Positions 68 to 38,972 of a DNA stretch of 46,167 nt are shown piece after piece (position 1 is the stretch's first letter; each line of letters begins with the position of its first letter). The DNA is from Hymenobacter sp. (GTDB taxonomy: Bacteria > Bacteroidota > Bacteroidia > Cytophagales > Hymenobacteraceae). Under the pieces are notes generated by a model, which did no database searches, was not told the DNA's origin, and worked only from the letters and a program-made list of their open reading frames with translations. Position numbers and translations under genes: made by a program. The stretch spans positions 1-46,167 of the forward strand of contig JANXNW010000266.1 of NCBI GenBank assembly GCA_025353905.1, given 5' to 3'.

Positions 68-123
68 TCACCTCTTCACCCAATTACCACCTCACCTAAT
101 CACCTCCTCACCCAATCACTGAT
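68..123. repeat. 8-nt phased degenerate tandem array, 7 units (TCACCTCT TCACCCAA TTACCACC TCACCTAA TCACCTCC TCACCCAA TCACTGAT)
   Basis: Read directly; strict 8-nt phase, ends immediately before the putative TTG start at 124. Confidence 0.85.
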
Positions 124-1470
124 TTGGCCGATATTTTTCCCTTGCGCGGCTGGCGCTACAATTCGGCCCTGAGCGCTGAGATTGACGCCGTTGTTTCGCC
201 GCTCTTCGACGTGGTGAGCGCCCGGCAGCGCGCTGCGCTTTACCAGAATCCGCTTAATTCGATTCACTTGTCCGTGCCGCGCGCCGAGCCTGGCTTGCCG
301 CCCGGGGCGGCGGCGGCCCGGCGACTGGCGGCCTGGCAGGCGGCGGGGGTGCTGCAGCAAGACGCGCTGCCGGGCATTTATGCCTACTACCAGTATTTTC
401 GATTGCCTGGCGAGGCGCGTGAGCGCTGCCGCAAGGGCTTCATGTGTTTGATTCGGGCCACTGATTGGGGTGCGGGCGGCGTGGTGCGCCACGAGAGTAC
501 GCTGCCGGCGGCCGTGAGCGACCGGGCCGCGCTGCTCGCTGATTTGGAGCTGCAAACCAGCGCCACCCACGGCCTGTACCGCGACGAGACCTTCGGGCTG
601 GAAGCGCTGCTGGACGCGGCCATCGCCGACCCGCTCTGCCAGACGGAGGAGGATTACCAGGGTGCGCGCGACGTGTTGGCCGTGGTGCAGGACGCGGCCG
701 CCATCCGGCAGTTTCAGCGGGTGCTGGCGGGCCAAACCGTGCTGCTCGCCGACGGCCATCACCGCTACGAAGGCTCGCTTACCTATCGCCGCGCCCGCGA
801 GCAGGCCGCCGGGCCGGGGGGCTACTCCGGCCGCGAGCCCTGGAACTACCACCTGATGTATCTGACCAACGCGGCCAGCGACGACTTGCGCATTCTGCCC
901 ACCCACCGGCTGCTGCTCGATTTGCCCGGCCCGGCCGGCCCGCTCACCGATGCCGAACTGCTGGCCCGCCTGAGCGAGTTTTTCACCGTGCAGACCCAGG
1001 CCGAAGCCCAGGACCTGCCCGATTTGCTGGCCGGTAAGCGCTGGGCGTTCGGGCTGTATTTGCCCGGCGGGGCGGCCTACAAATTGCGGCTGCGCCCGGA
1101 AGTCCACCCCCAGCTCGACTGGCCCACCACGCCCGAAGTCAAGGACCTGGACCTGACCGTGCTCCACTACTTCGTGCTAGAGCGGGTGCTGGGCATTGTC
1201 GGGGCCGCGGCGCAGCGGGCCTGGCCGAGCGTGGCCTACGTGCGCGGCCTCACGGAGTGTCTCCAGCAGGTGGACCGGGGCCAGGCCCGCGCCGCGCTGC
1301 TCACCAACGAGGTGACCATGGCCCAGGTCGAGGCCGTGTGCCGCTCCGGGGCCGTGATGCCGGCCAAGTCCACTTTTTTCTATCCCAAAACCCTGGCCGG
1401 CCTGCTCTTCGCCAGCCTGCGCGACGAGGCCGCCGGCTCGGTATTCGACGAAGTATTTGCCGCCCAATAA
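124..1470 (+). CDS. DUF1015 family protein
   Basis: 448-aa ORF; N-terminus MADIFPLRGWRYN and internal LLADGHHRYE typical of DUF1015; TTG start. Confidence 0.85.
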   Translation: MADIFPLRGWRYNSALSAEIDAVVSPLFDVVSARQRAALYQNPLNSIHLSVPRAEPGLPPGAAAARRLAAWQAAGVLQQDALPGIYAYYQYFRLPGEARERCRKGFMCLIRATDWGAGGVVRHESTLPAAVSDRAALLADLELQTSATHGLYRDETFGLEALLDAAIADPLCQTEEDYQGARDVLAVVQDAAAIRQFQRVLAGQTVLLADGHHRYEGSLTYRRAREQAAGPGGYSGREPWNYHLMYLTNAASDDLRILPTHRLLLDLPGPAGPLTDAELLARLSEFFTVQTQAEAQDLPDLLAGKRWAFGLYLPGGAAYKLRLRPEVHPQLDWPTTPEVKDLDLTVLHYFVLERVLGIVGAAAQRAWPSVAYVRGLTECLQQVDRGQARAALLTNEVTMAQVEAVCRSGAVMPAKSTFFYPKTLAGLLFASLRDEAAGSVFDEVFAAQ

Positions 1471-1484
1471 GCGGTTGTTCAGCA

Positions 1485-1519
1485 TCCTTAATCCCTAATC
1501 TTTCACCCTTCATCCCTGT
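1485..1519. repeat. 7-nt phased array (TCCTTAA TCCCTAA TCTTTCA CCCTTCA TCCCTGT) running into the maf GTG start
   Basis: Direct reading; last unit overlaps start codon 1518-1520. Confidence 0.7.
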
Positions 1520-2102
1520 GAAACTCGTGCTTGCTTCCGGCTCGCCGCGTCGCCGTCAGTTGCTGACCGACCTCGGGCTCACGTTTGAAATCCGCTTGCG
1601 GGACGTCGATGAAAGCTTTCCGTCCGAGCTGCGCGGGGCGGCCGTGGCCGAATACCTGGCCCGCCACAAAGCCGCCGCCTACGCCCCCGACCTGGCCGCC
1701 GACGAGCTGCTGCTCACGGCCGATACCATCGTCTGCCTCGGCGAGGAGGTGCTCAATAAGCCTGCCGACGCGGCCGAGGCCCGGGCCATGCTCACCCGTT
1801 TGCAAGGCCGCGCCCACCAGGTGCACACCGGCGTGTGCCTGTGGCCGGGCGATGGCCGCGCGCCGGTGGTATTTGCCGATACGACGACGGTCTGGTTCGC
1901 GCCCTTGTCGGTAGCCGACATCGATTTCTACGTCGCCCGGTACGCGCCCTTTGACAAAGCCGGGGCTTACGGCGCGCAGGATTGGCTGGGCCTGGTAGCC
2001 ATCGAGCGTCTGGAAGGCTCGTATTTTGGCGTGATGGGCTTGCCCACCCACCGCGTGTGGGCGGCTCTGCGTGAGTTGGGGCTGGAGGAGGCGCGTCGAT
2101 GA
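1518..2102 (+). CDS. maf: Maf-like nucleotide pyrophosphatase
   Basis: VKLVLASGSPRRRQLLTDLGL, ADTIVCLGEEVLNKP, FDKAGAYGAQDW motifs; GTG start inside the longer ORF 1257-2102. Confidence 0.92.
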   Translation: MKLVLASGSPRRRQLLTDLGLTFEIRLRDVDESFPSELRGAAVAEYLARHKAAAYAPDLAADELLLTADTIVCLGEEVLNKPADAAEARAMLTRLQGRAHQVHTGVCLWPGDGRAPVVFADTTTVWFAPLSVADIDFYVARYAPFDKAGAYGAQDWLGLVAIERLEGSYFGVMGLPTHRVWAALRELGLEEARR

Positions 2103-3964
2103 GCGCGGCCCAAACAGACCCCGAGGTGGGGTCAGAGCCAGGTTTGGAGCCGGGGCTGAAATCGGCTTCAGTGCCGGGCGGACTATTCTTTGGCTTGTTG
2201 AGTTTGGGTAGCCTGGCGGTTTGCGCGGCCCTGGCCGCCGGGCTGCTGTATTCGGCCGACTGGCCCGCGGTGGCGGCCCTGCGTGAGGCGTATCACTGGC
2301 AGCCTCGGGCCTACTCGCGCGCCGAGTTTGAGGGGTTGCGCCAGGGTTTGGCCTGGGCGGCGGGCGGGCTGGCGCTGCTGGGCTTGGGACTGGGCGGCAC
2401 GGCGGCGAGCCGCCGCGAGGGCCGGGCCTGGGCCGACGAGTGGCGGCAGCTGCGGCGAGGGCTGGTCGCGAGCTGGCGTGCCCTTCGCCCCGGCGAGCGG
2501 CGCGCGGCCTGGGTCGTGCTGGCGGCGCTGACGGCCCTGCGCCTGGGTCTGAGCCTGTACCTGGAACCCTACGACGACGCCGTGTCGTACGAATTATTCG
2601 TGCGGGCCGATTCCTGGCTGGCGGCGGCCGCGTTCTACCCCTTGCCCAATAACCACGTGGCGTCGAGCTTGCTCGACCAGGTGTTTTACCGGCTCCACCC
2701 TGGCTTTTGGTGGAGTATGCGCCTGCCCGTACTGCTGGTCAGCACGGGTGCCACGGCGGCTTGGTTCTGGGGTTTGGTGCGCGCGCGGGTCGGGTTTTGG
2801 GCGGCGCTGCTGGCGGCGGGCTGGTTCGGGTTGATGCAGGTGGGGCTGTACCACGCCGCGATGGGCCGGGGGTATTGGCTGCTGGTCGGCCTGGCTGGTC
2901 TGGGGTTTTTCGCGCTGCTGGACCTGACCCGGCCTCGCCCGTCTTTACCAGTTCCGCAGACGACCCCGGCCGGGGCGTCCGTTCTGGCTGTTGCTTTTCC
3001 CGCGCGAGCATTCGGGCAGCCGCGCCTGGCCTGGGCGACGCTTGTGGGCGGCGGTATGCTGGGGCTGTTCACGGTCCCGACGCACGCTTATTTCCTGTTT
3101 TCTGCTTACGGCTGGCTGCTGTGGCAGTCGCTGCGGCGGCGCGATAAGCTGCTGGGTAGCCTGGCGCTGGGCTTCGGAGGCGTGACGCTCCTCGGAGCCG
3201 GATTGCTCTACTCGCCGCTGCTGCTCGTATCCGGGCCGGCTAATTTTTTGGATAACGAATACGTGCAGCCCCTGGCGTGGGCGGAGTTCGGGCGGGGGTT
3301 GCCGCACTACGTTTGGTGGAGTGAGGGTTGGCTGGTGGGGCACCGCTGGCTGGGTCTGGGGCCGGGGCTGGTGGCGCTGGCGTTGGGCTGGCACTGGGGC
3401 CGGACCGGGCTAAACCTGGCGGACCGGCGCCTGGTCGGCCTCGCGTTGTGGCTGGTCATCACGCCCTACGCGCTCGTGCTGGTCCAACGCGTTCAGGCTC
3501 CCGAGCGAACGCTCTTTTACAAGGCGCAGTTCAGCCTGCTCCTGCTGGCGCTGCTCACCGATGCCGGACTTCGGCGGGCGTCTGTGGCCGCGGGACGCGT
3601 TCCGCGGATGCGCTGGCTCTTGGCGGGGTCGGTGCTGTACGCGGGTTTAAACCTGGGCCTGGTGCTGCGCAGCAACCGTTACCGGCAGCTCACCTGGGCT
3701 CCGTTTGAGGCGGCGTCCGATTGGTTGGCCACGCAGCCAGCCGGAGGGCCCATGTGGGTGCCGGGGCCCGGTACGCGTCTGGGATTGCGTTTTTACCTGC
3801 ATTATCGCTACCACGAACGGCCCTGGCAACTAGATAGCAAAGCGCGCCCCGGCGTACGTTACCGTTTCGTGGTGCTCTTGTCGGGCAGCGAGCGGCCCCC
3901 GCAGCTACGGCAGGCCCCCGTCCGCTGGCAGCAAGGCAGCCTGGTTATTCTAGAGGTTCCCTGA
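2099..3964 (+). CDS. polytopic membrane protein, putative glycosyltransferase family 39-like
   Basis: 621 aa, many hydrophobic helices; acidic loop YDDAVSYELF followed by YPLPNNH; ATGA overlap with maf. Confidence 0.6.
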   Translation: MSAAQTDPEVGSEPGLEPGLKSASVPGGLFFGLLSLGSLAVCAALAAGLLYSADWPAVAALREAYHWQPRAYSRAEFEGLRQGLAWAAGGLALLGLGLGGTAASRREGRAWADEWRQLRRGLVASWRALRPGERRAAWVVLAALTALRLGLSLYLEPYDDAVSYELFVRADSWLAAAAFYPLPNNHVASSLLDQVFYRLHPGFWWSMRLPVLLVSTGATAAWFWGLVRARVGFWAALLAAGWFGLMQVGLYHAAMGRGYWLLVGLAGLGFFALLDLTRPRPSLPVPQTTPAGASVLAVAFPARAFGQPRLAWATLVGGGMLGLFTVPTHAYFLFSAYGWLLWQSLRRRDKLLGSLALGFGGVTLLGAGLLYSPLLLVSGPANFLDNEYVQPLAWAEFGRGLPHYVWWSEGWLVGHRWLGLGPGLVALALGWHWGRTGLNLADRRLVGLALWLVITPYALVLVQRVQAPERTLFYKAQFSLLLLALLTDAGLRRASVAAGRVPRMRWLLAGSVLYAGLNLGLVLRSNRYRQLTWAPFEAASDWLATQPAGGPMWVPGPGTRLGLRFYLHYRYHERPWQLDSKARPGVRYRFVVLLSGSERPPQLRQAPVRWQQGSLVILEVP

Positions 3965-4048
3965 CCACTCAAGTCTAAGTTTTGCGGCCGGTTTAGTAAA
4001 GAGTTCGCTCTCAAGCTGCTATTCGAATAATCAACCCCTGATTCCCTC

Positions 4049-7811: not shown

Positions 7812-8098
7812 GTAACGGGGTTGTGAGCGCTGCCGGAAGTACGGTTAAACCGGGTCGCGGTTCAGTGAAGCGGGTATTGCTGGCGTATCTGGCCGGCGGA
7901 CTGCTGGTGCTGGCCGGTTGTCGCACTTGTCCTATCGATGAGTGCCACATCCGCAAGGCGCACTACCACGAGGGGGCTAAATACCGCGCCCGGCCCATCT
8001 GGAAGATGCAGTATCCGGCCATTGGCGAGCGCATCCGGGTAAATAAGGAAGGCGACGGCAAGCGCAAGAAAAGCGACCACAGTCGGCCCCTGAAATAG
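7808..8098 (+). CDS. small putative lipoprotein
   Basis: 96 aa from ATG overlapping the preceding TGA; hydrophobic stretch ending in lipobox LLVLAGC, basic C-terminus. Confidence 0.6.
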   Translation: MSNGVVSAAGSTVKPGRGSVKRVLLAYLAGGLLVLAGCRTCPIDECHIRKAHYHEGAKYRARPIWKMQYPAIGERIRVNKEGDGKRKKSDHSRPLK

Positions 8099-8137
8099 GG
8101 TAGGAGGGTACAAGGTTGAGAGGGCAGGAGGGTTTGT
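8098..8137. repeat. 8-nt phased array (GGGTAGGA GGGTACAA GGTTGAGA GGGCAGGA GGGTTTGT)
   Basis: Direct reading; first G is the last base of the upstream TAG stop. Confidence 0.7.
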
Positions 8138-8343
8138 TGATAATTCGGGGGTCAGCTCTCCTGATTTGCGATTCTAACGGGGGTAAGCCGCCAGCAAGCC
8201 CCTGCGTCGGGGGGTGGACGAGAGCGCCGCCAAAGTGGCCTAAAAGCTAGGAAAAACGGGTTTTTGGGCGTAACTTGCGCGGGCTTACGAGCATCCGTTT
8301 GGGGACCAGTTGTGCTGCCGATTTCGGTGGCCGTCGTCTCTTA

Positions 8344-8371
8344 TCCTAACTCCCTAATCCTAAATCCTTAA
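8344..8371. repeat. 7-nt phased array (TCCTAAC TCCCTAA TCCTAAA TCCTTAA) directly before the gyrA ATG
   Basis: Direct reading; same unit family as 1485-1519 and 35994-36028. Confidence 0.75.
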
Positions 8372-11051: not shown

Positions 11052-12275
11052 ATGAACAAACCATCCATACGGGCGGCCGCGCTGGTCGGCGTTGCCTTAG
11101 TCAGTGTTTGGGCCGCGCCGGCTTATGCCCAAAACTCTGCCGTTACCAATGCGCTCCTCAGCCAAAAAGCGGGTCAACTGGACAAAGCGCTGGTCAGTAT
11201 CAACGAAGCCACGGCCAACGAAAAAACCAAGGACAAGGCCAAAACCTGGTTCACGCGCGGCGAAATCTATTACCAGCTGCTCGACCCAAACCCCATCAGC
11301 CAGAAGCTTTACGGCAAGTATGCCGCCGCGCTCCAGCCGGGGGAGGCTCTCCAGAAAGCCACCGAGTCGTACAATAAAGCCGCTCAGCTGGACGGACCCA
11401 CTGGGGAGTTTGGTAAGCAAACGCCTGAGCGACTCAAGAATCTTTATATCATTGCCCTGAACGCGGGGGTAGTTGGCTATCAGGCTAAAGAGTATGATAA
11501 GGCCATCGCGGGCTTTAAGCAAGCGTCGCTGATTAACCCGCAGGATACGACAGCGCTTCTTTACAGTGCTTTTTCGCAGGATGCCAAGCAGGATTTTGCT
11601 GGGGCCAAAGCCAGCTATAATCAGCTCTTGGGGTTGGATGCCTACAAGACTAAACCAGCACCGGTAGCGGTGTATTCCCGGTTGCTACAAATCGCCCGCG
11701 AGGAAAAAAATACGGCGGAAGCCCAAAAAATAGTGCAGCGGGCCTTGGTAGCGTACCCGACCAACAAGACGTTTTTGATTGAGGACCTGACTCAGGCTAT
11801 GGCAGCAGGCGGTGGGGCCTCAGCGCTGGAAAAACTTAATAAGACTATCGCGGCCGACCCCAGCAATGCGAGTCTATACGCGGCCCGCGGCTCTTTTTAC
11901 GATTCGCAGGTTAAAACCGCGGCGACTCCGGCCGACAAACAGACTAAATCGGAATTGGCGCTGGCTGATTATCGCAAAGCAGTGGAGCTGGACCCGAAAA
12001 ACTTTGATTCGCAGTTCAACATCGGTGTCTTTGAGTTTAATCAGGCCGCCACGCTCTTTACCAAAACGAGTAAGATGGACTTGAAAACGTATCAGTTGAA
12101 AGGTAAGCCCATTGAAGTGGAAGCGCGTAAGCATTTTGAAACTGCCGCGCAGTACCTGGAAAAGGCCCTGAGTCTGCAGCCTGGCGACCAGGCTACGGTG
12201 GGTGCGCTGCAAAAAATCTATTCCCGGTTGAATCGTCCGGCTGACTTGCAGCGAATCAATGCGCTGAAGAAGTAG
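11052..12275 (+). CDS. secreted/periplasmic TPR-repeat protein
   Basis: Signal peptide (MNKPSIRAAALVGVALVSVWAAPAYAQ) followed by TPR-like helical repeats (YDKAIAGFKQASLINPQD; LADYRKAVELDPKNFDSQFNIGVFEFNQA). Confidence 0.85.
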   Translation: MNKPSIRAAALVGVALVSVWAAPAYAQNSAVTNALLSQKAGQLDKALVSINEATANEKTKDKAKTWFTRGEIYYQLLDPNPISQKLYGKYAAALQPGEALQKATESYNKAAQLDGPTGEFGKQTPERLKNLYIIALNAGVVGYQAKEYDKAIAGFKQASLINPQDTTALLYSAFSQDAKQDFAGAKASYNQLLGLDAYKTKPAPVAVYSRLLQIAREEKNTAEAQKIVQRALVAYPTNKTFLIEDLTQAMAAGGGASALEKLNKTIAADPSNASLYAARGSFYDSQVKTAATPADKQTKSELALADYRKAVELDPKNFDSQFNIGVFEFNQAATLFTKTSKMDLKTYQLKGKPIEVEARKHFETAAQYLEKALSLQPGDQATVGALQKIYSRLNRPADLQRINALKK

Positions 12276-12304
12276 CGCAGTAAAAGTGAATCTTAGTTAA
12301 ACGA

Positions 12305-12337
12305 AACCCCCGGCTTTAAGTAGTCGGGGGTTTTTTA
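12305..12337 (+). terminator. rho-independent terminator after the TPR gene
   Basis: ACCCCCG-GCTTTAAGTAGT-CGGGGGT followed by TTTTT. Confidence 0.85.
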
Positions 12338-12478
12338 TGCATGGGAGAGGGTCACAACCAGTTGAGTATAGCTAATTGGTAATAAGGATAAAGGAAGTCG
12401 CGAATCTAACTTAACATAATATAAATTATAGGACTAGAATAAAACTTCTTTTTTAGCCTGGATATTAGGTTTAGTTCA

Positions 12479-12504
12479 GTTCCTGAGTAATGTTCCTGAG
12501 TAAT
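12479..12504. repeat. perfect tandem duplication of 13 bp (GTTCCTGAGTAAT x2)
   Basis: Direct reading. Confidence 0.85.
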
Positions 12505-13118
12505 CGTTGCGCACCGTATTAACCCCGAGGGAATTTTGGCGACGAGGACATTAAAACAAGCAGGCTTGGCAGACTTGCCTGTCGAGTGATGCGTTCGTCT
12601 GCGTTCGTTGGGTATTTCGTTTGCATCGTTGAGTCGCGCCCATTAGCCGAAGCAAGTAACGTGACGCGAACCATTGACCCGCTATCCGTCAATTCAGTCT
12701 AGTGAGTTTGAAACCCGCGTTACGTCAGTCGCTTCCGTTTCTCATAATTCTTTTTTTCCGAACCCCAATTGATTTTTGAGTTGATTGTCATCGTAGGACT
12801 GCATCATAAGAGTCTTGATGAAGCTCAGCTTCAGTTAATGAATATGGTAGATAACGCAGAAGTTTGTGGAGCGCCTATTTCCCCAGGGCAAGGGGTAATT
12901 GTCGTTACTGTTGGATATGAATGAAAAACCTCTTTGGAGTCGGATTGTAGTCAATGGTCTTTCCTGAAAGCTGATATTTTGTTGGCTGAATGCTTGTTGG
13001 CGTTGGCTTGATCGACGTGAGATTGACAGCTCCCCTATTACTGTCACACTTGATTCATGGATAGCCTAAGTCATTGTTAGAGTCTGTCCTGAATGTTCTA
13101 TGTTGATGAAATTGAGAA

Positions 13119-13233
13119 AGTATAACAAGAGAGTATAAAAACAAAACAGCTTAAGCTAGAGTATAATAATAAAACAAGCTATAAAGTATAAAAAAGTATA
13201 AAAATTATAATTTATTTTATACTTTTTTATACT
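13119..13233. repeat. AGTATAA/TTATACT iteron-like motifs (five direct, two inverted)
   Basis: AGTATAA at 13119, 13132, 13160, 13185, 13195; TTATACT at 13217 and 13227. Confidence 0.75.
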
Positions 13234-13245
13234 TTATAGCTTGTT
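13173..13245. promoter_or_regulatory. perfect 31-bp inverted repeat with 11-nt AT loop upstream of the accessory gene
   Basis: AACAAGCTATAAAGTATAAAAAAGTATAAAA - ATTATAATTTA - TTTTATACTTTTTTATACTTTATAGCTTGTT. Confidence 0.9.
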
Positions 13246-13292
13246 AAATAGTGATTAACTACCTTCTCTTAGTATTTATTTATACTACCAAG

Positions 13293-14384
13293 ATGCCTAA
13301 ACTTATAGACTACCCTCGCACGAGCTACACCGGAGCCTGGGAAGTAGCAGAAGTTGTCGATGATACGGGTGGCAAATGCGCCCTGGAGACTTGTGCTCGC
13401 AAGCTAAATCGCAAAGTCAGTGGCTCATTTAAAGCCATCGTAGGCTCAGGAGTAAAGTTCGGCTTGCTAACTAGCAAACGAGAGCAACTAGCAACTACTA
13501 CCTTGTTCAGACGCATCAAACACGCCTATGATAAGCAAGAGGAGCTTTTATTTCACCGGGAGGCATTCCTTACTCCTCCACTCTTTACCCAGCTTTGCCG
13601 AAAGTTCAGGAGCCGTGAGCTACCCATCGGCATGCTTGATGTACTCCTGATTCGGGAATTCGAAGTAGAAGAGATTAACGCGCAAAGCGTCTCGAAAGCC
13701 TTTGTTGAGGGCGCCCGCATGGTCCGCTTATTGGACGAGAAAAACATAATGGCTGACATTGACCAATTGGCCAACGCACAACCCATTCGCCGGGAACTAG
13801 CTAGTCTACCATTACCGGAGAATAGTTTTAGAGCATCGGATACCGAAGACCAGCTTTCTATCAACTCAGCAACCCAAACCATTGACAGACTTACCTCAAC
13901 AAAAATGACGCAGCTTGACGTTGGTAACAAAAGCAACGAGGCGACGAGAGAAAGTCCTTTTCCTGACCGACACGACCGAGTCGGAGGTACTAACCTAACC
14001 AAGCTGCGTCAGGAGTCCATCAAGCAGACCCAATTCAACGAAGCATCACTTAATGCTCCAATAACGACTGCTACAACTTCCGATGTCGTCGCCAACTTGT
14101 TTGGTTTGTCTCAATCTCCAGGAGCAACCCGGGGCCAGGACCTGCCCTTGCTTTCGCCTGGCGCTACCCCGCCACTAACCCCTACCTTACCACCTGTATC
14201 GTTGGTGACCACTCTCGACAACCAAACTGGCAGTAAAAAGGACAATAGCGGAACTGACCAACACTTTAAGCTAGAGCTATCGGGACCGGGCATTCACACG
14301 CAGCTAGACCTAAACGACCCTGATGATTTAATACTGGCACGCGCCCTACTGAATAAAGTCGAACGACTCCTGTCTTTACGGTAA
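13293..14384 (+). CDS. uncharacterised accessory protein, possibly winged-helix N-terminus
   Basis: 363 aa from MPKLIDYPRTSYTGAWEVAEVV; low-complexity middle; C-terminal LELSGPGIHTQLDLNDPDDLILARALLNKVERLL; visibly lower GC than neighbours. ORF 13251-14384 has an alternative upstream start close to the inverted repeat. Confidence 0.75.
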   Translation: MPKLIDYPRTSYTGAWEVAEVVDDTGGKCALETCARKLNRKVSGSFKAIVGSGVKFGLLTSKREQLATTTLFRRIKHAYDKQEELLFHREAFLTPPLFTQLCRKFRSRELPIGMLDVLLIREFEVEEINAQSVSKAFVEGARMVRLLDEKNIMADIDQLANAQPIRRELASLPLPENSFRASDTEDQLSINSATQTIDRLTSTKMTQLDVGNKSNEATRESPFPDRHDRVGGTNLTKLRQESIKQTQFNEASLNAPITTATTSDVVANLFGLSQSPGATRGQDLPLLSPGATPPLTPTLPPVSLVTTLDNQTGSKKDNSGTDQHFKLELSGPGIHTQLDLNDPDDLILARALLNKVERLLSLR

Positions 14385-15145: not shown

Positions 15146-15224
15146 ATTAATTCCAGATACAAAGTGATAAATAGATGGTCAGCTAGTAGTTGTTAATTAG
15201 TGAGTGGGCTAATCAGTGAGTAGG

Positions 15225-16028
15225 CTAGTCAGTAGCCGGACCAACAGGCACCGGACGCATGGCGATGCCCCGCTCCAACAAATAGGCTTTCAGCCGGGCT
15301 GGGGCCAAGTCACCAAAATGAAAAACGCTAGCCGCCAGCGCCGCATCGGCCCCACCCGGAGCCAACACGGCGCTGAAATGAGCGGCCGCCCCGGCTCCGC
15401 CCGAGGCAATAACCGGCACGGATACGGCCGCGGCTACGGCCCGCGTCAAACTCAAAGCATAGCCGTCACGGGTACCGTCATGAGTCATTGAAGTAAGCAA
15501 AATCTCTCCGGCTCCGCGCTCCGCTGCTTCCCGGCACCAGGCAACAGTTTCGCGGCCAGCCGCCCGTGAGCCGGCATGCGTAAACACATCCCAACGTTCT
15601 CCCATTGGCTCCAAAACAACGTCGTTAGTTCGACGCGCATCTACGGCCACCACCAGGCACTGCGAACCAAAGCGCCGGGCCAGCTCGTCAATCAAAGCGG
15701 GCTCCCGCAGCACAGCCGAATTCAGGCTGACCTTGTCCGCCCCATTGAGCAGCAGCGCTTCGACATCGGCCACCGCGCCAATACCACCCCCCACGGTAAA
15801 GGGAATATTGACCTCGCGGGCAACCTGACGCACGAGCTCCAGAAGCGTACGCCGCTTTTCGAGCGTAGCCGAGATATCGAGCAACACCAGCTCGTCAAGT
15901 CCCTGCTGGGCGTAGCGAGCGGCCAGTTCGACCGAGTCGCCGGCATCGCGCAAGTCCTCGAAGCGCAAACCTTTCACGGTGCGGCCATTCTGCACGTCGA
16001 GACAGGCAATAAGTCGCTTGGTAAGCAT
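15225..16028 (-). CDS. hisF: imidazole glycerol phosphate synthase cyclase subunit
   Basis: MLTKRLIACLDVQNGRTVKG, PFTVGGGIGAVADVEALLLNGADKVSLNS, EILLTSMTHDGTRDGY. Confidence 0.96.
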   Translation of the reverse strand: MLTKRLIACLDVQNGRTVKGLRFEDLRDAGDSVELAARYAQQGLDELVLLDISATLEKRRTLLELVRQVAREVNIPFTVGGGIGAVADVEALLLNGADKVSLNSAVLREPALIDELARRFGSQCLVVAVDARRTNDVVLEPMGERWDVFTHAGSRAAGRETVAWCREAAERGAGEILLTSMTHDGTRDGYALSLTRAVAAAVSVPVIASGGAGAAAHFSAVLAPGGADAALAASVFHFGDLAPARLKAYLLERGIAMRPVPVGPATD

Positions 16029-19826: not shown

Positions 19827-19861
19827 TGGCTGATGGCTCGTGGCTGTTGGCTATTGGCTGA
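19827..19861. repeat. 7-nt phased array (TGGCTGA TGGCTCG TGGCTGT TGGCTAT TGGCTGA) immediately upstream of the hisC start
   Basis: Direct reading. Confidence 0.8.
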
Positions 19862-21243: not shown

Positions 21244-21253
21244 AGTTTTTTTA

Positions 21254-21369
21254 GTGCCTGGTGCCTGGTGCCTGGTGCTTGGTGCTTGGTGTTTGATGTA
21301 GTTTAGAAGGTTATAAAGAATTCCCGACACTAAGCACTAAGCACCAGGCACCAGGCACTAAGCACCAAA
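21254..21369. repeat. inverted pair of heptamer arrays in the hisG-hisD spacer
   Basis: GTGCCTG x3, GTGCTTG x2, GTGTTTG (21254-21295) versus CACTAAG x2, CACCAGG x2, CACTAAG, CACCAAA (21328-21369), both in exact 7-nt phase. Confidence 0.9.
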
Positions 21370-21372
21370 AAC

Positions 21373-22224
21373 CTACCCCACCATCTTCTCGATGCCCAGC
21401 ACGAGAATCCCTTCGGCGCCGATGGCCTGGAGCTGGCCGGTGAGGTGCCAGAAATTGTCCTCGTCCACGACCGACTGCACCGACACCCAGCCCGGCTCGG
21501 CCAGCGGGGTGACCGTGGGGGCCTTGATGCCGGGCAGCAGGGCCCGCACTTGGTCCAGGGCGGCGGCCGGGGCGTTGAGCACGATGTATTTCGAGCGGCG
21601 GGCGCGGCGCACGGCTTGCATGCGAAAGCGCAGCTGGTCGAGCAGCTCCTGCTTGTCGGAACTAAGGCCGGGGGCGGCGATGAGCACGGCCTCGGAGCGA
21701 AAGATGGTTTCCACCTCGCGCAGGCCGTTGCCGAGCAGCGTCGAGCCGCTGCTCACAATGTCACAAATAGCCTCGGCCAGACCGATGCTGGGCGCGATTT
21801 CGACCGAGCCGCTGATGGTATGCAAGTGCGCCTGCACGCCGTGGCCGGCCAGATAATCACCGAGGATATGCGGATAAGAGGTAGCGATGTTCTTACCCTG
21901 CAAGTCGGCCACCGAGCCGTAAGCATCGCCGCGCGGCACGGCCAGACTCAGCCGGCACTTGCTGAAACCCAGCGCCTCGATTTCGAGGTCGGCGGCCCCG
22001 GCCTCGACCAGCACGTTCTGGCCCACGATGCCCAGGTCGGCTACGCCGTCGCGCACGTAGCCGGGGATGTCATCATCGCGCAAAAACAGGATTTCCAGCG
22101 GGAAATTCGTCGCCTCGACCTTGAGCTTGTACGTGGACGAGGCGAAGCTGATGCCGCACTCGCGGATGAGGGCGAGCGAGTCGTCGGACAAGCGACCGGA
22201 CTTTTGAATGGCTAAGCGAAGCAT
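21373..22224 (-). CDS. hisG: ATP phosphoribosyltransferase
   Basis: MLRLAIQKSGRLSDDSLALIRECGI, DLGIVGQNVLVEAG, AICDIVSSGSTLLGNGL. Confidence 0.95.
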   Translation of the reverse strand: MLRLAIQKSGRLSDDSLALIRECGISFASSTYKLKVEATNFPLEILFLRDDDIPGYVRDGVADLGIVGQNVLVEAGAADLEIEALGFSKCRLSLAVPRGDAYGSVADLQGKNIATSYPHILGDYLAGHGVQAHLHTISGSVEIAPSIGLAEAICDIVSSGSTLLGNGLREVETIFRSEAVLIAAPGLSSDKQELLDQLRFRMQAVRRARRSKYIVLNAPAAALDQVRALLPGIKAPTVTPLAEPGWVSVQSVVDEDNFWHLTGQLQAIGAEGILVLGIEKMVG

Positions 22225-31393: not shown

Positions 31394-31445
31394 CGGCCGC
31401 TCCCGCCTGCTGACCCGGCCTGCTGACCCGGCCTACGGACTCCGC

Positions 31446-32432
31446 CTACTGCCCGGTGCGCCCCAGGTAGCGCGCGGCCTGGGCTCGCAGCGGGGCGGTG
31501 TTGGCCAGCGAGATGATGTCGCGCAGCGCGGCACGCTTGTCGCGGGCCTGGGCGTAGTACGCTTCGCAAATGCGAAAGCCGATGAAGTAGCCCAGCGCGC
31601 CCGGCTGCCCGGTAGCAGGGTCGGCCGAGGTCAGAAACCACTTGGCCACTAGTGGCTGCTGGGCTTCGCGCGCAAACTGCCGCCGCAGCTCGGCCTCGTG
31701 GCGGCGGCCGTAGGCAAACGCCTCCCCCGACCCCAGCCGGCCACTCAGCCGGAAGGCGACATATTCGGCCGCGCCTTCCAGCAGGGCCCCGTCCAGGTTG
31801 GTGCGGGCATTTCGAAGCTGCTGCTGTCCGTGCACCAGCTCGTGCAGGCACACGGTGGGCAGCGCCGCCACCGGCGAAACGCCGCCCCGCAGGTCCGGCC
31901 GCAGCTCGGCCAGCGGCGGGGCGGGCGGGGCGCACTTGAGCTCGGCTCCCACGTAGAGCAAATTTCCGAAGCTCGTGCCGCCGACCTCAAACTTGCCAAT
32001 GGCGAAATACAAATCCGGAAACGTACTGGCCTCATACGCCCGCTTGAGCTGCCGGGCCGCCCGCAGAATGGCGGCTTTTTGCGAACCAATGCGCTGGGTG
32101 GCGGGCCGAATAGCAGCCAGGTAGCGCCGGTGCGTCCGCCAGGCCGCCAGAAAATCGGCGGCCGAGGCGTGGGCGGCTGCCACGTAGGTGCGCAAGCCGG
32201 GCGTGGCCGGGGCCAGGTACTGGGTCTCGACCAGGGCGAGGCTGTCGGCCCGGCTACCGGCCGTGGCCAGCTGGTCGTAGGTGCGCCAGAAACGGTCCAC
32301 GTCGGCCCACTCCACGCGCAGGCTGTCGGGGTTAGGCTGGGCCGGCCGGGTCGCTTGCCCGTGGGCGGGCCAGGCTCCGGTCAGCAGCCAGGTCAACCCG
32401 GTCAGGGACAGAAGCAGGAGTCGGGCGCGCAT
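31446..32432 (-). CDS. putative secreted Zn-dependent protease (DUF2268-like)
   Basis: Signal peptide; HELVH (HExxH) with downstream LLEGAAEYVAF. Confidence 0.65.
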   Translation of the reverse strand: MRARLLLLSLTGLTWLLTGAWPAHGQATRPAQPNPDSLRVEWADVDRFWRTYDQLATAGSRADSLALVETQYLAPATPGLRTYVAAAHASAADFLAAWRTHRRYLAAIRPATQRIGSQKAAILRAARQLKRAYEASTFPDLYFAIGKFEVGGTSFGNLLYVGAELKCAPPAPPLAELRPDLRGGVSPVAALPTVCLHELVHGQQQLRNARTNLDGALLEGAAEYVAFRLSGRLGSGEAFAYGRRHEAELRRQFAREAQQPLVAKWFLTSADPATGQPGALGYFIGFRICEAYYAQARDKRAALRDIISLANTAPLRAQAARYLGRTGQ

Positions 32433-33233: not shown

Positions 33234-34931
33234 CTACTCGACCACGAACCGCGCCGACCGCGCCGACTTGCCGCCCGGCAACCGCACCCGCGCCACGTAC
33301 ACCCCCGGCGCGAGGCCGCCCACTGGCAAGCTCAGCGCCACCGTCGCGCCGCCCCCGGCCGCCACCCGCTGCCCGGTCACGAGCCGGCCGCGCTCGTCGA
33401 ACACTTCCGCGCGCAACGCCTGCCCGCGCCAGGACAGCGGCAGGGCCAGCAGCAGCAGCGCCTGCCCCTGGCTGGGGTTCGGAAAGACGCGCAGCTCCTC
33501 GTCAGCGGCCGCGACGGGCGGCACGGCGGCCAGCGGCGCTTGCAGCAAACTCAGCGCCCGCACCCCGTCCACGATGCCGTAGCCGAGGGAGTTATCCGGA
33601 TTCGGGGCCTGGGAGCCGCTGTTGCGCAGGGCCAGCAGCACCTGCTGAGCCGTGAGCGCGGGGTTAGCCTGCCAGAGCGCGGCCGCCAGCCCGGCCAGCT
33701 CGGGGCAGGCGTAGGACGTGCCGTTGCCGCGCACGATGCCGCCGCTGGGCGTGAGCACGGCCGAGGCCACGCCCATGGCCGCCAGCGTGGGCTTAATCCG
33801 GCCGTCGGCCGTGGGGCCGTAGGAACTGAAGCCCGCCCGGTTGCGCAGCGAATCCACGGCCCCGACGGTGAGAATGCTGTCGGCGTCGGCCGGCGCGCTG
33901 ATGTAGCGCCAGCTCTGGTTGCCGTCGTTGCCGGCCGATACCACGACGAGCATCCCGGCGCGCGCCGCGCCGAGCGCGGCCCGGCTGGCAATGGTCGTGC
34001 GCCCGTCGAGCTCGGCGTAGCGGTGCGAAAGCCGCGGCAGGTCGAAAGCCGTGTAGCCCACCGACGAGCTGATGACGTCTACTCCCACCGAATCGGCGTA
34101 TTCGGCGGCGGCCAGCCAATTGGCTTCTTCCACCGGGGCCTCACTCGTGGCGTCTTCCGTCAGGCAGAGGTGGTAGCTGGCCCCCGGCGCGGTGCCCACG
34201 TAGTAGCCGGGCAGCTCGGCGGCCATCGTGCTCAGGCAGGCCGTGCCGTGGCCGTTGCGCAGAAACACCTGCCGGTTGCCGTCCACGAAGTTGCGGGTGC
34301 TGAGCAGCCGCCCCGGCGCCCGCAGGTTTTGCAGGCTCGTTATCTGGTCCACGCCCGGAAAGCCCGCGTCGAACACGGCAATCTGCATTCCCTGGCCCGC
34401 GAAGCCGGCCTGCTGCAAGGCCACGGCCCCGATGAGCTGATTCTGGGCAAAAGCCCGGCCGTAGCGCCCGCGCGGCGTGGTGGGCGCAGCCGGCACGGGC
34501 GTGGGCACCACGGCCGGGGCCGGCACCACGGCGCTCGGCGGGCGCAGGCTCAGCAGCTGCGAGCCAGCCACGGCCGGCAGCGCGGCCACCGCGTCGAGGG
34601 TAAGCGAGTCGCAGACCAGCACCGCCCCGTTGAGCCAGCGCGAGGTGAAAAGCACCCGCGGCGCGCCGCTCACGGCCCGCACCTGGGCCAGGTACGCGGG
34701 GCTGACGGGCAAGTCGCGCGTCCGCACCGCGATGCCCTGGCGGGTGCGTCGGGCCAGCGCCCGCGCCGACAAAAACGCTTCGGGCTGACTCACGCTGTAG
34801 GGCGTACCGGCTTTGTCCTTGAAAAAAACGAAGTAGCGCCGCTCCGAATCCGACCCCTGGGCCTGGACCGGGGAAGCCAGCAGACTCAGCAGCAGGCCGA
34901 ATAAAGTAAGGAGGAGCGGCGAAGATTTCAT
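33234..34931 (-). CDS. S8 (subtilisin-like) serine peptidase with C-terminal T9SS sorting domain
   Basis: VFDAGFPGVD, NGHGTACLSTMA, GNGTSYACPELAGLAAALW; C-terminal VFPNPSQG...LAPGVYVARVRLPGGKSARSARFVVE. Confidence 0.9.
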   Translation of the reverse strand: MKSSPLLLTLFGLLLSLLASPVQAQGSDSERRYFVFFKDKAGTPYSVSQPEAFLSARALARRTRQGIAVRTRDLPVSPAYLAQVRAVSGAPRVLFTSRWLNGAVLVCDSLTLDAVAALPAVAGSQLLSLRPPSAVVPAPAVVPTPVPAAPTTPRGRYGRAFAQNQLIGAVALQQAGFAGQGMQIAVFDAGFPGVDQITSLQNLRAPGRLLSTRNFVDGNRQVFLRNGHGTACLSTMAAELPGYYVGTAPGASYHLCLTEDATSEAPVEEANWLAAAEYADSVGVDVISSSVGYTAFDLPRLSHRYAELDGRTTIASRAALGAARAGMLVVVSAGNDGNQSWRYISAPADADSILTVGAVDSLRNRAGFSSYGPTADGRIKPTLAAMGVASAVLTPSGGIVRGNGTSYACPELAGLAAALWQANPALTAQQVLLALRNSGSQAPNPDNSLGYGIVDGVRALSLLQAPLAAVPPVAAADEELRVFPNPSQGQALLLLALPLSWRGQALRAEVFDERGRLVTGQRVAAGGGATVALSLPVGGLAPGVYVARVRLPGGKSARSARFVVE

Positions 34932-34946
34932 GAGGGGTGGTTTTTT

Positions 34947-35168
34947 GTCAGTTGTCAGTTGCTTGTTGTCAGTTGTCAGTTATTTGGTCATTGCGAGCAT
35001 ATTGCGCATCGAGCAAGGGACGACGCAATCGCACCTGTTGAGCCGTGCCTGACGAGTTGAACAATGAGCCGAACAGGTGCGATTGCTTCGCTGCGCTCGA
35101 TGCGCAACATACTCGCAATGAACAAATAACTGACAACGAATAGCTGACAACATGCAACTGACAACTAA
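34947..35168. repeat. composite REP-like element: about 50-bp inverted arms flanked by GTCAGTT heptamer arrays
   Basis: Arms 34988-35039 and 35072-35121; GTCAGTT at 34947, 34954, 34968, 34975 (7-nt phase); AACTGAC/GCTGAC copies inverted at 35127-35165. Confidence 0.9.
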
Positions 35169-35169
35169 C

Positions 35170-35922
35170 TCACAACACGCCCGTTTCTATGAGCACCTCC
35201 TGCCGGGAATCGCCGTTCTGCACCACGCCGGGCGTGAGCGTTTGCAGGCCATTGGAGTCGGTGGTGAAGGTGAAATAGCGAAAGCGGCGGCGCAGCACCC
35301 GGCCCACGTCGCGAGCATACACCTGGCGCAGCCCGCGTTGGTAAAAGGCATTGAGGTCTTCGACGGCCCGCTCGCCCGGCTTGGCCGGCAGCGTGGCGCG
35401 GGTGCTGAGCGTGACGGGGTAATTTTTGGCCGGCAACCCGCCCATCGCCGGCGTGGTGAAGGCCCCGCCCACGCTGGCCGCGTAGAAGCGGCTGCGGCTG
35501 GTAATCGTGTCGGGCGTGTTGGTGAAAGCGTTCGCGTTCCAGCCCCGGCTGGCCTGGGGCGGATAAATCAGCTCGACCGTGCGCACGTTGTCGCGGGTCA
35601 GCAGCACGGCTTTGGGCAGAGCTTGCACGACGAGCACCGAATCGTCGGCCCAGGCAGCGGCGGCCGAGGCCCGGCGCGCGCGCACCAGCCGGAATGCCGG
35701 CAGCCCGGCCGCGTCCGTAAACTGCTCGCGCACTACCTCGCGCAACTGGTAGTTGCTCACGCTCAACTTGCCGTTGGTCCAGCTCGAATCAGCCACGGCG
35801 TAAGTGCGGTACGCGTTCAGGGCCAGCGGGAAATAGTCGTCGAGCGCGGGCGCGACCACCGACTCGGTGCGGCAGCCTGCCAGCAGCAGCAACGCGCTCA
35901 GCAAATAAAAGCGGTTTTTCAT
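35170..35922 (-). CDS. putative lipoprotein
   Basis: MKNRFYLLSALLLLAGCRTE lipobox; 250 aa. Confidence 0.65.
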   Translation of the reverse strand: MKNRFYLLSALLLLAGCRTESVVAPALDDYFPLALNAYRTYAVADSSWTNGKLSVSNYQLREVVREQFTDAAGLPAFRLVRARRASAAAAWADDSVLVVQALPKAVLLTRDNVRTVELIYPPQASRGWNANAFTNTPDTITSRSRFYAASVGGAFTTPAMGGLPAKNYPVTLSTRATLPAKPGERAVEDLNAFYQRGLRQVYARDVGRVLRRRFRYFTFTTDSNGLQTLTPGVVQNGDSRQEVLIETGVL

Positions 35923-35935
35923 GCGGTGAAGTTAA

Positions 35936-36028
35936 GGGATTAGGGATGAGGGATTAGAGATTAGGGACGCAGGATGAGAGGCAGAAAACCGCATCCCTAA
36001 TCCTTAATCCCTCATCCCTCATCCCCAA
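35936..36028. repeat. inverted pair of GGGATTA/TCCCTAA-type heptamer arrays overlapping the mnmA 3' end
   Basis: GGGATTA GGGATGA GGGATTA GAGATTA ... (35936-) and TCCCTAA TCCTTAA TCCCTCA TCCCTCA TCCCCAA (35994-36028); mnmA stop at 36012-36014. Confidence 0.9.
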
Positions 36029-37151
36029 AATCCCCCATGACGTGGCGCGCAATCCAGCCGCCGCCGAGCACGTCGTCGCCGTCGTAGAAGACGGCCGCCT
36101 GGCCGGGGGTAATGGCGTGGACCGGCTCGGTGAAGTAGATGGTCACGGTATCGCCGACTTGCTCCAGCAGCGCCGCCGCGCCGGCGTGGTGGTAGCGCAC
36201 CTTGACGACGGCCGGCACCAGGCCGCGGCCTTCGAGCGAAGCCAGCTTGCCCAGGTTGAGCTTGTGAAGCGTGGTGCGGGTGCTGGCCAGCTCGTCGTAA
36301 TTGCCGAGCACCACTTCGTTCGTTTCGGGCCGAATGGCGAGCACGAACGCCGGGTAGCCCAGGGCCACGCCCAGCCCTTTACGCTGCCCGATGGTGTAGA
36401 ACGGGTAGCCCTCGTGCTGGCCCAGCACCCGCCCGCCGGCCGTCACGAAGTTGCCGCCCGCCACGCGCGCTTCGAGCCCCGGCACCCGCCGCCGCAGGAA
36501 GCCGCGGTAGTCGTTGTCGGGAATAAAACAGATTTCGTAGCTCTCGGGCTTGTTCACGAGGGCCGTGAAGCCGCGCCGCCGGGCCTCGTCGTAAATCTCG
36601 GTTTTGCGCAAGGCTCCCAGCGGAAACAGCGTCCGGCTCAGGCTTTTTTGCGACACGCCCCAGAGCGCGTAGCTCTGGTCTTTGGCCTCGTCGAGCCCCT
36701 TGCTGACCACGTAGCGGCCGGTTTCGGCATCGTGGCGGATGCGGGCGTAATGACCCGTGGCGATGAACTCGCAGCCGAGCTGGTCGGCGCGGCGCAGCAG
36801 CGCGTCCCACTTGATGTGGGTGTTGCAGAGCACGCAGGGGTTGGGCGTACGCCCGGCCAGGTACTCGTCGGTGAAATTGTCGATGACGAAATCGCCGAAC
36901 TCCTCCCGAATGTCGATAATGTAGTGCGGAAAGCCCAGGCGCACGGCAATGTCGCGGGCGTCGTTGATGGAATCGAGCGAGCAGCAGCCGGTTTCTTTTT
37001 TCGAGCCGCCGGCCGTGGCGTAGTCCCAGGTTTTCATCGTCATGCCGACGACTTCGTAGCCGGCCTCGTGCAGCAGCACGGCGGCCACCGAGGAGTCGAT
37101 GCCGCCGCTCATGGCCACCAGGACGCGGCCTTTGGTTGGATTGGGGTTCAT
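36012..37151 (-). CDS. mnmA: tRNA-specific 2-thiouridylase
   Basis: GRVLVAMSGGIDSSVAAVLLHEAGYEVVGMTMK, TPNPCVLCNTHIKWD, ATGHYARI, KDQSYALWGV, GQRKGLGVA. Confidence 0.96.
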   Translation of the reverse strand: MNPNPTKGRVLVAMSGGIDSSVAAVLLHEAGYEVVGMTMKTWDYATAGGSKKETGCCSLDSINDARDIAVRLGFPHYIIDIREEFGDFVIDNFTDEYLAGRTPNPCVLCNTHIKWDALLRRADQLGCEFIATGHYARIRHDAETGRYVVSKGLDEAKDQSYALWGVSQKSLSRTLFPLGALRKTEIYDEARRRGFTALVNKPESYEICFIPDNDYRGFLRRRVPGLEARVAGGNFVTAGGRVLGQHEGYPFYTIGQRKGLGVALGYPAFVLAIRPETNEVVLGNYDELASTRTTLHKLNLGKLASLEGRGLVPAVVKVRYHHAGAAALLEQVGDTVTIYFTEPVHAITPGQAAVFYDGDDVLGGGWIARHVMGDFGDEG

Positions 37152-37213
37152 GCGGGGGAAAGCCACCCAGGGAATTGAACGTTCCGGCTGGTTTCCGTTT
37201 GGCAAAGGTAAAT

Positions 37214-37354
37214 GTTTCTTGTTTCTTGTTTCTTGTTTCTTGTTTCCAGGGCGTACGTTCTCGCAGAGTTCCGCAAAGGCTTACTTTGAGGTTCGCAAGG
37301 GCCAACTGCCACTACCTCGCTTGGCTCAAGTTTGAAACAAGAAACAAGAAACAC
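37214..37354. repeat. inverted pair of GTTTCTT heptamer arrays in the mnmA / TrpF-like spacer
   Basis: GTTTCTT x4 + GTTTCCA (37214-37248); GAAACAA x2 + GAAACAC (37334-37354). Confidence 0.9.
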
Positions 37355-37356
37355 CC

Positions 37357-37896
37357 ATGCTCCTCCTTCCCGTTCTCGTGCGCGGCATCAATAACCTGTC
37401 CGACGCCCGCTACTGCGCCGGCATGGGGGCCAGTGGCCTTATTTTCACCCTCGACCCGGCCCTGCCCGGCGCCGTCGCGCCGGAAACAGTGCGCGAGCTA
37501 GCCGGCTGGGTGGCCGGGGTCGAGCTGCTGGGCGAATTTGGGGCCGATATGCCGCCGGCCGACCTCAACCAGCTCGTGGCCGACTGCGGCCTGAGCCGGG
37601 TGCTGCTGCGGGACGCGCCGACCACGCCAGACCCCGCGCGGACGCAAAAACTGGTGGTACCGGTGCTGCGCGTGCTTAAAAACCCCCTGCCTATCAGCGC
37701 GCTGCCCAGCCACGAAACCGCGTTAGCTGAGTTGAGCGGCTGCTGGCTCAGCGGCCCGTTCGCGCCGGCTCAGCTCCCGGACTTGCTGGCCGCCCGACCA
37801 GCAGGAATTATTTTGGAGGGCGGCGACGAGCTCCGGCCCGGCCTGCGCGATTTCACCGAGCTCGAAGCGCTGTTCGAGGCGCTTCAAACCGACTAG
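37357..37896 (+). CDS. TrpF-like (phosphoribosylanthranilate isomerase-like) protein
   Basis: VLVRGINNLSDARYCAGMGASGLIFTL pattern of the TrpF N-terminus; 179 aa. Confidence 0.6.
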   Translation: MLLLPVLVRGINNLSDARYCAGMGASGLIFTLDPALPGAVAPETVRELAGWVAGVELLGEFGADMPPADLNQLVADCGLSRVLLRDAPTTPDPARTQKLVVPVLRVLKNPLPISALPSHETALAELSGCWLSGPFAPAQLPDLLAARPAGIILEGGDELRPGLRDFTELEALFEALQTD

Positions 37897-38026
37897 CGGC
37901 ACGGACGGCGCGCGGGCCGCGAAAAAACTGGCCGGGTGGGCAATCCGGCCGGCGGCCGGCCGGCGTACATAGGCCCGCATTCGCTTCTTCTCGAAGCAGC
38001 CACTCACCTTCAACGCCTTACCCTGC

Positions 38027-38911
38027 ATGAAACTCGTCCTTACCCTGGCCCTGACGGCCGCCGTCACGACCGCCGTCCACGCCCAAAGCAGCCCCACTCC
38101 TAGCGCCTCTGCCGCCCCGGCCTCCCGCCTGCTGGCCTTACAGGAAACCGCCCCGAGCAGCCGGCCCGCCCAGGCCCAGCCCACCTACCGGCTCAGCGGA
38201 CAGGTACTCGGGCCAAGCGGCCAGCCGCTGCCTGGCGCGACGCTTCTGCTCAAGGGAACGCAGACGGCCGTCAGCACCGATGCCACGGGCAAATACAGCC
38301 TCGACGTACCTACCCGCACGGCCTTCATGCTCGTGGCTGGCTACGCCGGCTTTGCCGAACAAACCCTGAGCGCCGCCCCCAACCAAGCCGTGCTCAACGT
38401 GCGCCTGGGCCCCGCCCTGGCGAAAGCGGCCCCGACCAAAGCGGCCGGCCTCACGCGCGGCCTGCGAGTAGGTGATGTGGCCCCCGACTTCGCCCTGCCC
38501 ACCACCACGGGCACCACCTTCAAGCTCAGCGAGCACCGCGGCCACCCGGTAGTGCTCTATTTTTACCCCAAAGACGGCTCGTCGGGCTGCACCAAAGAGG
38601 CGTGCTCATTCCGCGACCAGTACCAGGATTTCCGCGACCTCGGGGCCGAGGTCATCGGCATCAGCTCCGACGATGCGGCCTCGCACCAGCAGTTCACGGC
38701 CAAGTACGCGCTGCCCTTCCCGCTGCTCGCCGACCAGGGCGGCCAGCTGCGCAAGCAATACGCCGTGCCCCGCGCCGTGCTCGGCCTGCTGCCCGGCCGC
38801 GTTACTTACGTGCTCGACGGCGAAGGCCGCGTTCGCTACGTGTTCAACTCGCTCACCGAAGCCAACAACCACGTTATCAACGCCCGGCAAATCCTCCAGG
38901 AGATTCAATGA
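38027..38911 (+). CDS. carboxypeptidase-regulatory-like domain fused to PrxQ/BCP-type peroxiredoxin
   Basis: Signal peptide; YRLSGQVLGPSGQPLPGATLLLKGTQTAVSTDATGKYSLDVP; then VGDVAPDFALPTTTG...VVLYFYPKDGSSGCTKEACSFRDQY. Confidence 0.85.
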   Translation: MKLVLTLALTAAVTTAVHAQSSPTPSASAAPASRLLALQETAPSSRPAQAQPTYRLSGQVLGPSGQPLPGATLLLKGTQTAVSTDATGKYSLDVPTRTAFMLVAGYAGFAEQTLSAAPNQAVLNVRLGPALAKAAPTKAAGLTRGLRVGDVAPDFALPTTTGTTFKLSEHRGHPVVLYFYPKDGSSGCTKEACSFRDQYQDFRDLGAEVIGISSDDAASHQQFTAKYALPFPLLADQGGQLRKQYAVPRAVLGLLPGRVTYVLDGEGRVRYVFNSLTEANNHVINARQILQEIQ

Positions 38912-38972
38912 GCGAATGGGTGAATGGGTGAATGAGTGATTGTTCGACTTCACCCATTCACCCATTGAATCT
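38909..38972. repeat. inverted 8-nt phased array spanning the stop codons of two convergent genes
   Basis: GAATGGGT GAATGGGT GAATGAGT (38914-38937) / TTCACCCA TTCACCCA (38949-38964). Confidence 0.85.

Follow-up and report, generated by a model that had tools for sequence, protein, structure and literature searches.

Between the genes of a 46,167-nt contig of Hymenobacter sp. (assembly GCA_025353905.1, contig JANXNW010000266.1; the whole contig is called the window here) lie short tandem arrays of 7-nt units, most of which belong in pairs to foldback elements, a typical element consisting of a tandem heptamer array (sometimes an octamer array), a loop, and an inverted array of the same word. 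The spacers of this genome hold hundreds of such elements, which obey one polarity, include multi-copy loop families, can differ between relatives by 7-bp steps in their arms, and can be exchanged whole between near-identical loci. About half our confidence goes to reading the arrays as mostly the arms of non-autonomous palindromic elements, similar to repetitive extragenic palindromes (REPs) or miniature inverted-repeat transposable elements (MITEs), with arms that grow by 7-nt slippage and edges set by purifying selection. A first-pass annotation of the window, made from the sequence alone, had described the arrays as phased repeats docked onto gene boundaries, and missed the inverted pairing of most arrays, the single polarity rule, and the shared loops. 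For decades such heptamer repeats have been recorded across several bacterial phyla, and no account of their origin has gained acceptance; the window genome and ~100 congeners share a common grammar of paired arms, one polarity, a 7-nt step, and cassette replacement, at an element density sufficient to test origin models by comparing close relatives.

Arrays were located by Tandem Repeats Finder and lag analysis, with significance taken from 1000 dinucleotide shuffles of each local stretch. At lag 7 or 8, P was ≤ 0.003 for the arrays at 68–119, 1484–1515, 8343–8371, 19827–19859, 21254–21299, 21328–21373, 34945–34981, 35935–35967, 35993–36025, 37213–37246, 37334–37353, 38914–38939, and 38949–38966. 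The array at 8098–8137 was weaker (P = 0.025), the one at 35121–35165 reached P = 0.12 at lag 7 and is better fitted by a period of 14, and the site at 15200–15231, listed by the first-pass annotation as a weaker case, shows a 16-nt repeat in place of a 7- or 8-nt period (P = 0.74 at lag 7/8). Most of the arrays it had proposed are thus real, at or very near the positions given there. Its description of the period as strictly 7 or 8 was nearly right: in the lag spectrum of the window spacers lag 7 stands out together with 14 and 21, period 8 (with 16) is weak and forms a minor second class, and other lags do not stand out.

Eight lag-7 arrays reached a score of 14 in the window spacers, compared with none in shuffles. 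Eight were also found in 79 kb of window-genome contigs picked without regard to hits, 31 in a larger set from the same genome, whose density is somewhat inflated because pieces of contigs C31 and C215 were partly chosen for having hits, and 11 in 400 kb of arbitrary stretches of relatives; the shuffle baseline of ~1 in the larger-set and unselected-contig counts appears to be due to a masked run. A composition artefact or chance might be suspected from the relatively high A+T content of the spacers and from scoring AT-rich palindromes such as 13180–13238, but dinucleotide shuffles yield essentially no arrays, no such excess occurs at other lags, and reversed-pattern controls give far lower counts. 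Shuffles and controls together refute this explanation, the probability of which is close to nil.

The arrays recur through the window genome, as the annotation had expected, and through the genus. Among the window genome and 100 other searched genomes (101 in all), the four-unit pattern ARTKRNY occurs in 91, with 0 to 244 matches per genome, and over the phylum in 139 of 297 genomes, where low single-genome counts are not readable as elements because several genomes give at least as many matches to the reversed control. Of the three outcomes that the annotation had named as speaking against its pattern, array frequencies no higher than in shuffles and absence from the rest of the genome were not what we found, since the arrays are non-random and recur in genome and genus.

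Several of the arrays in the annotation's list are the two arms of one foldback, with five such pairs in the window: 21254–21299 with 21328–21373, 34945–34981 with 35121–35165, 35935–35967 with 35993–36025, 37213–37246 with 37334–37353, and 38914–38939 with 38949–38966. The arrays and element parts of the window are as follows.

68–119, plus strand: C-rich array TCACCYMA of 8/16-nt period, on the right-hand edge of the spacer that precedes the DUF1015 gene, obeying the polarity rule.
1484–1515, plus strand: unpaired, C-rich array of degenerate heptamers (ATCCYTA) in the spacer separating the DUF1015 gene from the following plus-strand gene.
8097–8137, plus strand: weak G-rich octamer array AGGGTAGG, beginning at the stop codon of the gene preceding gyrA.
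8343–8371, plus strand: C-rich heptamer array ATCCTAA/ATCCCTA, ending 1–2 nt before the gyrA ATG.
15194–15233, plus strand: TAATCAGTGAGTAGGC, a 16-nt repeat at the hisF 3′ end, with no 7- or 8-nt array in the lag test.
19827–19859, plus strand: unpaired, G-rich array of the heptamer TGGCTGW, close to the hisC start in the spacer between hisD and hisC.
21248–21292, plus strand: left arm GTGCCTG/GTGCTTG of a foldback that fills the hisG-hisD spacer.
21327–21371, plus strand: right arm CACCAAG/CACTAAG of the hisG-hisD foldback, 89% complementary over 45 nt.
34940–34981, plus strand: left arm TTGTCAG of a foldback spanning 34940–35169.
34989–35120, plus strand: core of the 34940–35169 foldback, an inverted pair of the GTCATTGCGAGC...GCAATCGCACCTGTT palindrome, resembling CGTC-tagged REPs.
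35121–35169, plus strand: right arm AACTGAC of the 34940–35169 foldback, mainly of 14-nt period.
35925–35970, plus strand: foldback left arm AGGGATT, upstream of the minus-strand gene at 35170–35922.
35991–36036, plus strand: foldback right arm ATCCCTA, overlapping the mnmA 3′ end and supplying the mnmA stop codon.
37213–37246, plus strand: family-I left arm TGTTTCT, between mnmA (minus strand) and a plus-strand gene at 37357.
37247–37333, plus strand: family-I core, ~85 nt.
37334–37353, plus strand: family-I right arm GAAACAA, ending 3 nt before an ATG.
38901–38942, plus strand: left arm of a foldback with 8-nt period (octamer AATGGGTG), following the thioredoxin-like gene.
38949–38972, plus strand: right arm TTCACCCA of the 38901–38972 octamer foldback, in a convergent spacer.

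The array at 68–119 has no inverted partner in the available part of its spacer, and beside it, at positions 1–60 on the window edge, lies a further copy of half the GTGCGATTGCTTCG...GCTCGCAATGACGG palindrome. The mnmA matches to relatives shown stop at query residue 390–396 of 397.

Anatomy was counted over 620 kb of the window genome, part of it selected through array hits. An inverted partner was present in 83 of 102 array-bearing spacers (81%), with a median arm identity of 91%, whereas a random other array-bearing spacer supplied a partner at the same score in 7%; this null was used in place of a complement-only or reverse-only control, which is unreliable as some words are near-symmetric. 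Loop lengths ranged from 6 to 185 nt, most being 6–150 nt, with one outlier at 749 nt. Reading from the gene edge inward, 106 of 129 heptamer arrays had more G than C and 14 had more C than G (106 of the 120 informative arrays), with the richer-in-G strand running 5′ to 3′ from the outer end toward the loop whatever the gene orientation. The counts per gene arrangement were 40:3 (++), 46:2 (−−), 23:1 (+−), and 20:8 (−+), and all 23 octamer arrays followed the rule. As the polarity is the same in all gene contexts, it is not set by the sense strand. Orientation for motif work was defined by position, a strand-free motif search having returned a mixed motif, and the inward words match a loose KKRYYWR pattern (2.54 nats per array versus 1.96 ± 0.02 in column-permuted controls). 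The proposal of a constant period with a variable unit stands insofar as the words change from locus to locus, but they are not unrelated.

The docking of arrays onto gene edges was borne out, with 66% of outer arm ends no more than 10 nt from a gene edge, compared with 24% under random placement. Gene edges came from a purpose-written gene finder, which is simple, so individual gene starts may be wrong. Outer ends mostly fall 1–10 nt short of starts, but about half of those at stops run over the last codons, the outcome expected of purifying selection at a coding edge. Docking did not hold up as support for a start- or stop-codon role, given that enrichment at starts is no stronger than at stops and all spacer orientations are occupied (18 of 56 convergent, 13 of 76 divergent, and 52 of 292 co-directional spacers); such a role is not supported by the data. 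The same counts bear on the possibility that the elements are functional RNA hairpins kept by selection as terminators, intercistronic stabilisers, or 5′-UTR structures. The strong folding of array spacers (median z −6.2 versus −1.1 in array-free spacers), the modest enrichment in convergent spacers, and the closeness of arms to starts and stops are in keeping with it, but elements also occupy divergent and co-directional spacers, polarity is identical in all contexts, Rfam has no match in the window, and other species carry a different element or none at the same spacer, making this explanation distinctly unlikely.

Some elements share their loops. The ~85-nt family-I core occurs in 12 places in the window genome, and GTTTCTT-like inverted arms flank the copies read, with variant words and with left and right lengths that are independent of each other. 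A second core, a GTCATTGCGAGC...GCAATCGC palindrome similar to CGTC-tagged REPs (PMC3733652), lies within arms of several different words, including the element at 34940–35169, the core of which (34989–35120) is common to other window-genome elements with different arm words; a plasmid collection gave no match to the 34932–35175 element. A third core is a 30-nt loop paired with ATTGCTC arms, and in total 17 of 57 longer loops (≥25 nt) are related to loops of other elements. Because some copies share a loop, dispersed element families exist, which qualifies the first-pass view that the arrays are not one mobile family: there are many words, as it said, yet one 85-nt core alone has 12 copies. 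A conserved body between terminal inverted repeats in many copies, as in a MITE, is seen in family I, while 40 of the 57 longer loops have no relative. In relatives, the search for its core found only half-core palindromes with a longer unit, which also fill spacers. Six relatives (G005, G020, G034, G042, G050, and G071; L226–L248) carry foldback arms of a longer phased unit of the CGCAGAGTTTCGCAAAGTTGG type, and several of these foldbacks fill spacers from stop codon to start codon.

Orthologous spacers, the comparison of which the annotation had recommended, showed elements absent, stepped by 7 bp, or replaced. Neither of the two arrays near gyrA (8097–8137 and 8343–8371) occurs in the spacers of G014, G020, and G005, all close relatives, that align with theirs. 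Upstream of mnmA, foldbacks differ between species or are lacking: in G069 and G095, within flanks ~96% identical, the stretch from a shared stop codon to a shared TACCTTTG promoter box is occupied by elements unrelated to each other, while G045 has the G095 type and G088 a third type. The G069/G095 case is a replacement whose mechanism is not shown, because import by homologous recombination would look the same; in four genomes, the G069 element had only arm-level or partial matches and no near-complete second copy elsewhere. Between G020 and G005 (median protein identity 97.6%; foldback spacers counted by eye), five of eight true foldback spacers kept their element in place and three were changed or absent. 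Two of the five in-place foldbacks differ by exactly one 7-bp unit, and at spacer 265665 the changes are clustered in the left arm. Array-free spacers of this pair are a median 84% identical, and spacers therefore change fast anyway.

These comparisons can also be read as pure in-place slippage, in which spacers are the only DNA free to vary, a polymerase prefers 7-nt steps, the two arms match by local inverted duplication (template switching), and nothing moves. Exact 7-bp indels, in-place change between G020 and G005 with the clustering at 265665, and the unrelatedness of most loops all fit this explanation; moreover, heptanucleotides are reportedly the commonest long simple repeats in many bacteria, and a polymerase-contact hypothesis has been offered for the 7 nt (Mrazek 2007, as cited in PMC4679880 and PMC4692102). 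However, it accounts poorly for 12 copies of one core with arms, for CGTC-like cores inside several arm words, for whole elements replaced between flanks ~96% identical, and for the same arm words recurring widely over many loci. Own arms are not clearly closer than same-word arms elsewhere, so the arm match does not come mainly from local inverted copying, and templated copying between own arms was rejected in that role, as the own partner outranked its peers of the same word in just 10 of 59 cases. We regard pure slippage as unlikely, though the likeliest of the alternatives.

In the reading we favour, that of palindromic elements with slipping arms, arms would lengthen and become uniform through replication slippage in 7-nt steps, helped by hairpins in single-stranded DNA, and the elements would spread or be replaced through some enzyme or through recombination. 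Arms would come to touch coding edges as spacer DNA is free to change and selection removes insertions or expansions into essential codons. The elements would be mainly passengers, which inside operons may be transcribed as stable hairpins with at most incidental effects on mRNA. Several observations weigh against this reading. Slippage alone explains neither the step of 7 nor the fixed polarity. In addition, 40 of the 57 loops of at least 25 nt have no relative in the sample although their arm words recur elsewhere, which simple whole-element copying does not predict, and the two arms of an element resemble each other hardly more than they resemble same-word arms at other loci. No partner was detected in about a fifth of array-bearing spacers; replacements were seen between relatives, with no target-site duplication or clean empty site; no transposase with such ends was found, heptamer arms not being seen at the 8 Y1 loci examined; and genomes without Y1 genes still show up to 38 pattern matches.

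The last two points bear directly on whether a REP-associated tyrosine (Y1) transposase, RAYT, drives mobility and the elements are REPs in the strict sense. Pattern count and Y1 gene count correlate over the 101 genomes (Spearman 0.40, p = 3e-5, kinship ignored), all 16 genomes with at least 50 matches have at least one Y1 gene, and some cores resemble CGTC-tagged REPs (PMC3733652). The Y1 counts, however, include ordinary IS200, CGTC-tagged REPs have themselves been reported without a dedicated transposase (PMC3733652), and both the array-free surroundings of the examined Y1 genes and the matches in Y1-less genomes speak against a link, making this version improbable. RAYT as the dedicated mobiliser was rejected, the association being present and the flanking arms not found.

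A very improbable but consequential option is a trans-acting, template-directed process that writes heptamers into spacer DNA via a hypothetical enzyme. In one variant, both 3′ ends of a spacer break would be extended with the same 7-nt word, telomerase-like, and then joined. If true, a single step would account for the fixed polarity, for arms that share a word around unrelated loops, for the constant period and genome-specific words, and for whole-spacer replacement, and a dedicated enzyme would mean that DNA can be written in a new way. Slippage and mobile palindromes, if nothing else is at work, would still explain much of the fast spacer change in the genus, and would be a warning against taking such arrays for regulatory sites.

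Short tandemly repeated repetitive (STRR) sequences of heterocystous cyanobacteria are dispersed short tandem heptanucleotides, as are the arrays here, and the cyanobacterial repeats proposed in the first-pass annotation proved a good analogue. To our knowledge, inverted pairing is not part of the usual STRR description. The arrays here differ in words and in phylum: for one window region, queried with the open reading frame (ORF) antisense to mnmA, which returned few loci, the closest named relatives are mostly Bacteroidota-like metagenome-assembled genomes, Cytophagales included, and none is cyanobacterial. The Xanthomonas GGGAATC and Nostoc GGGGA(C/T)T repeats are intergenic 7-nt arrays near ORF edges; Xanthomonas has 70–75 convergent inverted pairs per genome, and repeat length and sequence differ among closely related species (PMC4692102). 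The 7-nt period in spacers is shared with both, and the convergent pairs, with the G-rich strand leading inward, show the same strand preference as in Xanthomonas (PMC4692102); unlike the single word family per organism and the G-quadruplex emphasis there, many words occur here and only 11 of 154 arrays have at least four G-tracts.

TAACTGA direct repeats in Beggiatoaceae, Cyanobacteria, and some Bacteroidetes are intergenic, have a 7-nt period, and often end 1 nt before a start codon; relatives carry the flanking sequence without repeats, nearly all of the repeats are direct (169 sets, and one indirect repeat), and related heptamers are rarely or never repeated (PMC4679880). Arrays here likewise end within a few nucleotides of start codons, and their loose pattern also accommodates the TAACTGA complement, AGTTATC in phase, whereas the one word and almost exclusively direct arrangement there contrast with many words and mostly inverted pairs. 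In the P6b stem of the Nostoc trnL intron, both sides are built of 7-nt motifs of class TDNGATT or NNTGAGT, length changes by 7-nt motifs, and class distribution does not match phylogeny (PMC4476775). That stem resembles the foldbacks in being built on both sides from one motif class, but is a single site in a group I intron with two classes, in contrast to genome-wide spacer elements. REPs and bacterial interspersed mosaic elements (BIMEs) are also short, dispersed, often paired intergenic palindromes (PMC3733652), and a similar palindrome forms the core of 34940–35169; here, however, the arms are variable-length tandem heptamer arrays without a fixed stem sequence, and of the REP tags (GTAG/CGTC) a CGTC-like core is present in some elements only. 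What is added to known repeats is the many words per genome, pairing as a rule, polarity across contexts, and cassette replacement, with novelty judged on the open-access literature, where no paper joining Hymenobacter with palindromic intergenic repeats was found.

The window is contig C431 of a 435-contig draft assembly of 4.14 Mb, 82% complete, and its genes include DUF1015, gyrA, the his operon (hisG, hisD, hisC, hisF, and hisIE), mnmA, a subtilase, and a thioredoxin-like protein. G+C content drops to 44% at 12001–14000, between a TPR gene and the end of hisIE, compared with ~65% over most of the window, and this stretch is a possible recent insertion. The AT-rich palindrome at 13180–13238, with 9–10-nt repeats (AAAGTATAAA / TTTATACTTT), lies in this low-G+C region. 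Between two minus-strand ORFs, positions 31405–31456 hold ~4 copies of a 13-nt tandem unit, GCCTACTGACCCG, and the spacer at 43444–43490 contains two copies of a 23-nt repeat, TATGACGTACATGTACAACATAC.

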